64,000 nucleotides of DNA from contig LWRO01000002.1 in NCBI GenBank assembly GCA_001657325.1, positions 1 to 64,000 on the forward strand, written 5' to 3'. The translations under genes and the position numbers were made by a program. This stretch comes from Geitlerinema sp. BBD 1991-9 (GTDB lineage Bacteria; Cyanobacteriota; Cyanobacteriia; Cyanobacteriales; Geitlerinemataceae). The notes beneath the pieces were generated by a model. That model had not been told where the DNA came from and did no database searches. It saw only the letters and a list, made by a program, of their open reading frames with translations. Below are positions 4,758-52,289 of this stretch, piece after piece (position 1 is the first letter of the stretch; each line of letters begins with the position of its first letter).

Positions 4758-4831
4758 GGGACTGTAGTTCAATTGGTTAGAGCACCGCCCTGTCACGGCG
4801 GAAGTTGCGGGTTCGAGCCCCGTCAGTCCCG
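4758..4831 (+). tRNA. trnD: tRNA-Asp (GTC anticodon)
   Basis: A full cloverleaf is visible. The acceptor stem is GGGACTG (4758-4764) paired with CAGTCCC (4824-4830), with discriminator G at 4831, as expected for tRNA-Asp. The D arm contains GTTCAATTGGTTAGAGC. The anticodon stem is CCGCC/GGCGG around loop CTGTCAC with anticodon GTC, and the T arm contains GGTTCGAGCC. CCA is not encoded. It reads GAC and GAU codons. The gene has its own promoter and terminator and sits at the junction between the decayed Rhs region and the core chromosome. Confidence 0.97.
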
Positions 4832-33198: not shown

Positions 33199-33210
33199 GG
33201 AGATCGAGTG

Positions 33211-33315
33211 GGGTGCATCTCAATTTCGTAGAATGACCGACCCCTCCGCCTTCGGCACCTCCCCTTAGCTAGGGGAGGATGGGTGGGGCTTCGATCGCAA
33301 AAGTGAGATGCACCC
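33211..33315. mobile_element. MITE-like element A, copy 1
   Basis: 105 bases bounded by perfect 12-base inverted repeats GGGTGCATCTCA (33211-33222) and TGAGATGCACCC (33304-33315). It is flanked on both sides by GATCGAGTG (33202-33210 and 33316-33324), which looks like a 9-base target duplication. An internal stem CCTCCCC/GGGGAGG is present. There is no coding capacity. Related copies lie near 41190 and 51318. Confidence 0.8.
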
Positions 33316-33342
33316 GATCGAGTGAATGGGAAAAAAGCTCTC

Positions 33343-40964: not shown

Positions 40965-41189
40965 ATTGGCTAAACGGGGAGCAGCAAAATAGCCAGCTTT
41001 GACAAACACTGGGTATCGATCGAATTCGATCTGTCGCAGGAATGGTTACGCCGTTAACCTGTAGTAAAGGCGTTTTCCGAATTTTTCGACTCGATAGGAA
41101 AGTGATGCGATCTCAAAACTGACAGTATCTTTCCAACTTTGTTTTTGACGGTGCTTCCGAGTCGAACGTTCATCGACACCTTCGACGTA

Positions 41190-41270
41190 AAATGACCCCT
41201 CTGCCTTCGGCACCTCCCCTTAGCACGGGAAGGATGGGTGGGGTTTCGATCGCAAAAGTGAGATGCACCC
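41190..41270. mobile_element. MITE-like element A, copy 2 (left end lost)
   Basis: About 80 bases closely similar to the right part of copy 1 at 33211, ending in the same AAAGTGAGATGCACCC. Its left inverted repeat is not recognisable. The right flank GATCGAGT is shared with copy 1. It lies in a 714-base region (40905-41618) that contains only repeats and the terminator. Confidence 0.7.
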
Positions 41271-41376
41271 GATCGAGTTGAAGGCAGAACTGACCAAAAA
41301 GCTCTCCTCAACTTCGCGATCGCTGACGAGATTACGATAGGTGGGAAACTCATCGCGATCGAACGCCAGATCGATT

Positions 41377-41453
41377 GATTGGGTTGAGCTTGCGAAACCC
41401 AACAGCAGCAAGCTTCAAAGTGGAATTCTGGGTTTCCTTGTGTCAACCCAACC
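41377..41453. repeat. Palindromic repeat family B, copy 2
   Basis: Ends GATTGGGTTGA (41377-41387) and TCAACCCAACC (41443-41453) pair at 10 of 11 positions. The interior shares GAGCTTGC-AAACCCAAC, CAGCAAGCTT and AAAGTGG with copy 1. Similar GGGTTGAGC/AACCCAACC palindromes are, to my knowledge, frequent in cyanobacterial genomes. Confidence 0.75.
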
Positions 41454-41530
41454 GACCTTTCAGAGATCGAAAAATTACGGTTCTCTTGGAATTGCGGTGG
41501 TATTGGGTTGCTTACGATATCCATATCGTT

Positions 41531-50725: not shown

Positions 50726-51301
50726 ATGCTGTTCGAGATTGTATCAATATCATGGCTTTTAGCGAGCGAGATTTCGATCGATCCGATCCTCGTCGAGAGA
50801 TCGATCTCAACATTCGATAACTGCTCGAACGATCTTTTCAAGCTCAGTCAATCGATCGACTCTTTTGAAAATATCGTTTACGACACCTATTACAACAGGC
50901 GATTTAACTTTTCTGTAGACTATCCTAGCGGATTGCTTTTAGCTCAAGGAGAATCGATTAACGGTGACGGACAATCTTTTTTAGCACCTGACAGAAGCAT
51001 TGCGATGGTTGTTTTTGGGCAGCACAATCGTGACAATCTTAATATTGAAGCTTTATATCAAAACGCGCTAATAAATTTTAACAATCCAGAACACTCCAAA
51101 ATTATAACTTACCAAATACAACACGATAATTGGTTTGTTATCTCTGGATATTCAAACGATCTCGTATTTTACCAACGTACGATTTTAGAGGGCAATATCA
51201 TTCAAACCCTAACGATCGAATACAATGCCGCACTACAGCCAGAATTCGACGATATTGTTACTGAAATTTCTCGATCGTTTCGCAGCACCAATCCGAGATA
51301 A
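50726..51301 (+). CDS. Hypothetical protein, possibly exported
   Basis: 191 residues, not recognised by family. The mature part looks like a compact beta-rich domain with the phrase FSVDYPSGLLLAQGESINGDG and then SIAMVVFGQHNRDN. It ends in a charged amphipathic helix. The N-terminus (MLFEIVSISWLLASEISIDP) is hydrophobic but lacks a good signal-peptide shape, so export is doubtful. The pattern YPSGLL...GDGQ occurs in some secreted cyanobacterial proteins. It follows the CAAD terminator by 127 bases and is followed by MITE copy 3. Confidence 0.6.
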   Translation: MLFEIVSISWLLASEISIDPILVERSISTFDNCSNDLFKLSQSIDSFENIVYDTYYNRRFNFSVDYPSGLLLAQGESINGDGQSFLAPDRSIAMVVFGQHNRDNLNIEALYQNALINFNNPEHSKIITYQIQHDNWFVISGYSNDLVFYQRTILEGNIIQTLTIEYNAALQPEFDDIVTEISRSFRSTNPR

Positions 51302-51317
51302 AGATCGCCCATAAAAT

Positions 51318-51393
51318 GGGTACATCTCAAGTTCTTAGAATGACCCCTCCGCCTTCGGCGGAGGGGTTCCGATTGCCAAAGTGAGATGCACCC
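51318..51393. mobile_element. MITE-like element A, copy 3
   Basis: 76 bases with ends GGGTACATCTCA and TGAGATGCACCC (one mismatch). It is flanked by CATAAAAT on both sides (51310-51317 and 51394-51401), an 8-base direct repeat typical of insertion. The interior contains CCCCTCCGCC/GGCGGAGGGG, a perfect stem with a TTC loop. Confidence 0.85.
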
Positions 51394-51473
51394 CATAAAA
51401 TATCGAACTTTCTAGAATTGGCGATTTAGCGTGTAGCGTTCGATCGTCCCGAGCGGTCATACCATCACGGACG

Positions 51474-52289
51474 CTACAAATTGAGGCTCGTACTCGATCG
51501 TTGTAACACGATCGCTCGATCGCCGACAATGGGATTTCGCGCGAGTAAAGTTCCGCCCTCGTCAGTAATTTCAACATGAGTAAAATCGAGAGACTTCGCT
51601 TTTCCCCATAACTCGTTTGCCAATCGATCTTGTTGAATCGGATCGAGATCGTACCACTGCGATTTCAGACTGACACGCAATCGATCGGCTTCAAAATCCG
51701 CACTGACCGATCGGACGAACTCGTTATCTTCGTAAGGTTGTGCGACTTGCACGATCTGCGCTTGCACCGCTGCGACGAGACGCTGTTCAGGAGTCAGAGA
51801 CGGCGGTGCGAGTTCGACCGGTCGAGCAAAATCGGGTGAAGAGAGTTCCGAGGGAAGTTCTGATTCCGCTGAGGGTTTTAGAGTTTCCGGTTCCCGCACG
51901 TCCAGTTCGGGTTCTGATTCGGTCTCCGAAGGGGGTAGCGGAGGCAATTCTATCGGGGTTGGTGTCGGCGACTCTCGGACAGGGGGTTGCGGTTCGACGG
52001 GAAGCGGTTTCAAGACCACTTCCGGCGGCGTGGGTTCGGTAGACGGGAGCAGTAACGGAACCGCCACCACTCCAACCCCGATGGCGACAACGAGCGCGCC
52101 CACCCACAGCAGTGGAGAAGAGAGGGGAGATCGAGTCGTTGCAGCCGATTCTGTCGCTTCCAATCGATCGATCCATCCTTCCAGAACCGAAATCGTCGCC
52201 CGCAAAACCCGAATGAGTATCGATCGAACGACTCCAGGAGCCTGAGATACGTCAGACCGCTCGTCCGATGGAGGTGGAGTTTGAGACAT
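51474..52289 (-). CDS. Single-pass membrane protein with proline-rich linker
   Basis: 271 residues, not recognised. A polar N-terminus with an amphipathic helix (IRVLRATISVLEGWIDRLEA) is followed by a membrane helix (about 61-80, LLWVGALVVAIGVGVVAVPL). A long Pro/Glu/Ser-rich linker comes next (about 85-165, for example PTPTPIELPPLPPSETESE). A small C-terminal domain has SLTPEQRLVAAVQAQIVQVA and WYDLDPIQQDRLANELWGKA. The layout suggests a periplasmic domain tethered at distance, perhaps crossing the peptidoglycan. It is upstream of nothing on its strand within 1 kb except argF, which ends about 105 bases before it. Confidence 0.75.
   Translation of the reverse strand: MSQTPPPSDERSDVSQAPGVVRSILIRVLRATISVLEGWIDRLEATESAATTRSPLSSPLLWVGALVVAIGVGVVAVPLLLPSTEPTPPEVVLKPLPVEPQPPVRESPTPTPIELPPLPPSETESEPELDVREPETLKPSAESELPSELSSPDFARPVELAPPSLTPEQRLVAAVQAQIVQVAQPYEDNEFVRSVSADFEADRLRVSLKSQWYDLDPIQQDRLANELWGKAKSLDFTHVEITDEGGTLLARNPIVGDRAIVLQRSSTSLNL

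Follow-up and report, generated by a model that had tools for sequence, protein, structure and literature searches.

An abundant MITE family in a cyanobacterial genome, with a 76-bp member very probably moved by an ISKra4-type transposase

The 64-kb window analyzed here, a 64,000-nucleotide stretch of Geitlerinema sp. BBD 1991-9, contains at 51318–51393 a 76-bp sequence between two identical octamers. The locus raises the question of whether this sequence arrived by transposition or is a conserved structural RNA, and, if it was transposed, which type of transposase moved it. The initial annotation had described it as the third copy of an element in the window, 76 bases long with the same ends and 8-base flanking repeats. 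Indeed, CATAAAAT is present at 51310–51317 and again at 51394–51401 with exactly 76 bases between them; this octamer occurs six times in the window when both strands are counted. The 12-bp TIRs, GGGTACATCTCA on the left (A-end, plus strand, 51318–51329) and TGAGATGCACCC on the right (B-end, 51382–51393, reading GGGTGCATCTCA on the minus strand), are complementary at 11 of 12 positions, with a single mismatch. Position 5 of the left end is A in this copy (hereafter copy 3) and G in copy 1. In order, copy 3 consists of GGGTACATCTCA, a 14-base spacer, a 10-bp hairpin whose loop has 3 bases, a 15-base spacer and TGAGATGCACCC. The perfect interior hairpin noted initially was confirmed, as its arms CCCCTCCGCC (51344–51353) and GGCGGAGGGG (51357–51366) pair over 10 bp without mismatch around a 3-nt loop. 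As judged by eye, the core of copy 3 lies in the orientation usual for the family (plus strand).

The RNA of copy 3 has a predicted fold of −40.0 kcal/mol (z −6.2, 200 shuffles) and that of the other strand one of −43.4 kcal/mol (z −7.8); on each strand, none of the 200 shuffles folded as well. The fold is strong on both strands because the hairpin is combined with paired ends. The element starts 16 bases past the end of an ORF at 50726–51301 (plus strand) and ends 80 bases short of the stop of an ORF at 51474–52289 (minus strand). A Pfam search at E 0.001 gave no match for either of them. Scanning the window with Rfam 15 at the gathering score returned a tRNA at 4758–4831 as the sole match, and none on the MITE. 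A terminator scan did not list the inner hairpin; its 3 sites, with 1.9 expected, included on the element no more than a stem of 5 bp that lies at the left junction. A candidate promoter pointing outward from the right junction (TTGCCA, a 17-base spacer, TAAAAT; 51373–51401) was rejected, as promoter-like sites numbered 5 in 2 kb compared with 2.3 in shuffles.

Within the window, the 12-base end was found five times with up to two mismatches, against 4.00 expected, and 41 of 100 shuffles reached as many; this count is not significant, although the five matches carry 0 or 1 mismatch, so significance was drawn from the genome-wide count and from the duplications. In the organism's own assembly (G000; 5.98 Mb in 113 contigs), the end was matched 167 + 180 times with at most one mismatch, compared with 13 + 17 for a reversed control. 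The corresponding numbers in G002, the nearest relative, were 250 + 258 and 3 + 6. Across 59 genomes, the own one included, counts varied widely (for example 108 + 106 in G053 and 60 + 58 in G014), and many other genomes were near the control level. An 18-base B-end pattern was present in at least 103 stretches of genome contigs, and 78 of the 80 among the matches listed have cyanobacterial titles. The two non-cyanobacterial records among the matches listed (L142 and L191) are titled as a Bacillota MAG and as Paenibacillus taichungensis.

The genome of this cyanobacterium contains well above 100 members of the family. Paired copies are 76–281 bp long, mostly below 160 bp, and copy 3 has the general features of a MITE: it is 76 bp long, has no transposase gene, belongs to a set of many copies, and has inverted ends and flanking duplications. 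We did not find this MITE described in the open-licence literature, where the end 12-mer and its complement appeared only in papers judged unrelated from their titles and the starts of their abstracts. The family, or subfamily, is very probably of ISKra4 type, and elements of this kind are already known.

To look for target-site duplications, ends were paired when each had at most two mismatches, their sum was at most three and they were 50–320 bp apart. From G000 the sample took in about 0.39 Mb together with the window and some individual loci, and from G002 it took in 20 stretches; it is not random, because stretches were picked for holding end matches. Exact duplications of 8–9 bp flanked 18 of 38 paired copies in G000 (15 of 8 bp, 3 of 9 bp) and 23 of 47 in G002 (15 of 8 bp, 8 of 9 bp, a nested pair counting as two copies). 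Thus, like copy 3 with its CATAAAAT, 41 of the 85 paired copies in the two genomes have an exact duplication of the length found in the ISKra4 group, and 20 of 38 and 24 of 47, respectively, lack one. Allowing one mismatch raised the numbers to 27 of 38 and 25 of 47. When the left flank of one copy was combined with the right flank of another 1000 times, exact duplications averaged 0.000 (G000) and 0.037 (G002), and those with one mismatch 0.057 and 0.100. The duplications are almost all distinct (18 of 18 in G000, 22 of 23 in G002).

The same holds among copies of the shortest length. The five 76-bp copies that could be compared (copy 3 on C58, and those on C65, C24:22874, C34 and C10) each have a duplication of their own, exact in three cases and containing one mismatch in the other two; at C24:22874 the left end is decayed and the duplication was read by eye. 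They are therefore members of one short subfamily that inserted at five places, and not one conserved site. The many different 8–9-bp duplications and the five differing 76-bp copies support the initial proposal of real transposition, and the segment at 51318–51393 is a real insertion of an ordinary mobile-element kind.

A natural empty site is present in G002, where an 87-bp MITE is split by a 153-bp element that shares its ends, and TTTACATT flanks the insert on both sides (L064 15739–15986). Removing the insert and one TTTACATT leaves 87 of 87 bases identical to an unbroken copy 2.5 kb away (L064 18519–18605), which contains TTTACATT once, as do nine other 87-bp copies. The insert itself is complete, as 11 other full-length copies align with it end to end at 93–97% identity. 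The right flanks of the split and unbroken copies are identical over 257 bases and their left flanks are unrelated (27/100); for this reason the two look like copies of a duplicated stretch whose start lies inside the MITE or at its edge, the insert being present in one of them and absent from the other. The comparison demonstrates the duplication mechanism for ends of this type, though in a sister element and not in copy 3.

The loci of the window were also compared directly. Among the 59 genomes, own included, the DNA at 50726–52289 has a counterpart in G002 and in none of the others apart from the own genome, with the match lying within the right-hand ORF. In G002, the left-hand ORF is unmatched and the gap is unalignable, with no readable single-CATAAAAT junction, and the 15-kb G002 stretch contains neither an end 12-mer (up to two mismatches) nor CATAAAAT. 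For the left-hand ORF (50726–51301), 41 stretches in genome contigs fit the peptide pattern and none was confirmed as a relative. The genes flanking copy 1 do align in G002, where they are spaced by about 2.4 kb versus about 0.3 kb here. Since L242, which covers 1.5 kb into this gap in G002, has no end 12-mer within two mismatches, G002 has no copy 1 near that gene end, but the target is not comparable.

Autonomous elements of about 1.18 kb with these ends occur in G002 and encode an ISKra4 transposase. ISKra4-family enzymes are Mutator-like DDE transposases. One 1186-bp element carries a 277-aa ORF (L052 9677–10510) that scores 267.6 bits against the NCBIfam model NF033572 (transpos_ISKra4; cut-off 205) and far lower against other models (ISH6, 53.5 bits; ISLre2, 51.5 bits). 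Sixteen ISKra4 loci were examined of the 25 transposase matches in G002, three of the 16 stretches holding 100 N. Nine of the 16 have the end pair (at most two mismatches in each end, 700–1800 bp apart), and eight also have an exact 8–9-bp duplication; L226 and L228 share one duplication and so are not independent among the eight. In the other seven loci, one end (three loci) or no end (four loci) was found around the gene. The perfect 12-mer stands at both ends in just two of the nine paired loci (L229 and L238); the ends mostly carry one mismatch, the commonest reading being GGGTGCATCCCA.

Elements with the same features occur in named cyanobacteria. Four of five plasmid ISKra4 loci have the end pair at IS distance and three of them (L086, L087 and L088) have an 8–9-bp duplication; L089, annotated as ISOni1 family, has the ends and no duplication. 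L088, which is annotated as ISKra4 family and is 96% identical to L089, is referred to here as ISOni1-type. Its ends are GGGTGCATCTCACTTT(T/G)GC and its duplication is 9 bp. Copy 3 starts with GGG and ends with CCC; over the outer 24 bases, its B-end matches either L088 end at 20 positions and its A-end at 14–15. Against eight IS ends, the A-end matches at 12–17 and the B-end at 16–20 of 24 positions, which is short of the 18–39 bp of the superfamily. Random 24-mers of the window, some of which may overlap MITE copies, reach a maximum of 18 and a mean of 7.7. L088 is 1180 bp long with a transposase, whereas copy 3 has 76 bp, no gene and an unrelated core, and the inner core of the MITE has no match beyond 9–10 bases in four ISs.

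In the own assembly, a search at E 1e-10 gave three ISKra4 matches, all under the cut-off. The match at C1:3024–3887 is a full-length pseudogene with five stops, that on C70 is a fragment with three stops, and that on C80 is a fragment that begins 73 bases from the contig end and reads on toward it. No intact partner transposase was seen in this assembly, a 113-contig draft of a kind that can hide repeated ISs. Four loci with single ends (L001, L009, L018 and L027) were viewed by eye and showed no transposase ORF beside them; L001 holds a decayed ISKra4 element. On C80 (L120 1–1270), a CRISPR-like array with the repeat GTCTAAATCCGATAAAATCCCTTTTAGGGATTGAAAC, read by eye, adjoins the ISKra4 fragment, which has another end type, GGGAGCATCTAG, and the contig stops inside the fragment. 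G053 has 108 + 106 end matches, yet no ISKra4 match at E 1e-10, so that many MITE ends are present there with no visible partner transposase.

Taken with these elements, copy 3 is very probably a non-autonomous MITE of ISKra4 type that was moved in trans by an ISKra4-type transposase. The enzyme, encoded elsewhere, would bind the GGGTGCATCTCA ends and would move the 76-bp DNA. Movement would be in trans because 76 bp leaves no room for a transposase gene. A staggered target cut of 8, sometimes 9, bases followed by repair would then yield the direct repeat CATAAAAT. Circular intermediates have been reported for related families (PMC3942029).

Two other explanations deserve weighing, and we consider each of them highly improbable. 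Copy 3 could be a structural RNA or terminator-like hairpin kept by selection, its flanking octamers being coincidental. The strong fold on both strands would suit such a function, and so would the position of copies 1 (33202–33324) and 3 (51310–51401), each between convergent ORF ends. Intergenic copies of both genomes are indeed in excess there: 21 of 52 lie between convergent ORFs, whereas gaps of this kind number 53 out of 268 and 56 out of 265 (20.5%; 22% by length). Tested against a fraction of 0.215, this gives p 0.0016, the ORFs having been called by a crude longest-ORF method. Not counted were 19 copies located in ORFs, 6 located at edges and 8 that lie on short loci of G000. The excess, however, may simply reflect selective loss of insertions that hit promoters or genes. 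A conserved RNA would also have to account for many differing flanks, each with its own duplication, for an empty site in a sister element, and for the recurrence of the same ends on ISKra4 elements. Moreover, the crude caller places 9 of 30 copies and 10 of 47 within ORFs, some of which are short and doubtful, Rfam found nothing except the tRNA, and the terminator scan was silent on the inner hairpin. The hairpin may still do something as RNA after insertion, which is compatible with transposition.

Alternatively, the MITE could have been moved by another family that makes 8–9-bp duplications, such as IS256, ISLre2, ISH6 or ISL3, a reading to which we give equally little credence. Duplication length alone does not separate these candidates, the partner ORF itself weakly matches the ISH6 and ISLre2 models, and the own assembly has no intact ISKra4 gene. 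Against this, the full-length elements found with these ends, in a search directed at ISKra4 only, sit at ISKra4-transposase loci. Together with the empty site of the sister element, the ISKra4-family elements with such ends and duplications lend the annotated transposition further support, and we favor movement by an ISKra4-type enzyme.

What began as a guess from reading the sequence is now a supported assignment: a MITE family that is very abundant in both of these related cyanobacterial genomes and is linked to ISKra4 ISs by its ends and duplications. Its copies provide a natural insertion set for studying target choice in this transposase family; the general picture is unaltered. A MITE family named Nezha has reportedly been described in cyanobacteria. 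The 147 MITEs of Anabaena sp. 90 resemble the copy 3 family in being short, multi-copy, foldable and mostly intergenic with inverted ends, and differ in that they showed no evident similarity to IS ends of their own genome (PMC3542288), whereas matching ISs are present here in the relative G002. According to PMC3942029, IRs in the p-MULT 4/ISKra4 superfamily are 18–39 bp long and end in a conserved C (G on the other strand), and its DRs measure 8 or 9 bp; the copy 3 family shares the duplication length, and the outermost bases of copy 3 would fit the terminal C. Some elements of this group insert upstream of sigma-A promoters, as stated in the same source, in contrast to the position of copy 3 between convergent ORF ends.

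The two other copies in the window differ in preservation. Copy 1 (33211–33315, plus strand, 105 bp) has a long core and perfect 12-bp ends, and its duplication is better taken as 9 bases, GATCGAGTG, at 33202–33210 and 33316–33324. Copy 2 (about 41192–41270, plus strand) retains an intact right end at 41259–41270, and its left end is missing or decayed, none being found within two mismatches. The right flank of copy 2 opens with GATCGAGT, the first 8 bases of the copy 1 duplication. This may be chance, because the octamer is so frequent in the window (32 occurrences on both strands), or it may be a partial copy of the copy 1 region. An ORF at 41054–41524 (minus strand) passes through copy 2 (region 41192–41300). 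It has matches in two of 14 genomes, the own one and G002, nearly all over the MITE part (residues about 80–114) and belonging to further copies of the MITE; none of the 14 genomes showed an orthologue. Knowledge of the family is useful for annotation because copies run through predicted ORFs in this way.

A more speculative proposal, which we regard as unlikely though worth stating, is that the family diversifies by inverting its hairpin core between fixed ends, and that the 76-bp form arose when template switching "perfected" the hairpin and thereafter spread by transposition as a subfamily of its own. Were this the case, one could read from these MITEs a history of hairpin-driven inversion within transposing DNA, and inserted copies could serve as two-way hairpins at convergent gene ends. 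Among 26 G000 copies with an A-end, crudely labeled, the core was normal in 14, flipped in six and unclear in six; 12 further G000 copies, copy 3 included, had no A-end by the pattern used. In G002, the A-end was present in six of 47 copies, with one normal core, five unclear and none flipped. The flipped copies, whose cores are inverted relative to distinguishable ends, are all in G000 (C6:54875, C10:6858, C13:41783, C24:2975, C24:20558 and C24:35817). They comprise 96-bp, 76-bp and 122–139-bp structures and so would represent, by inspection, at least three inversion events.
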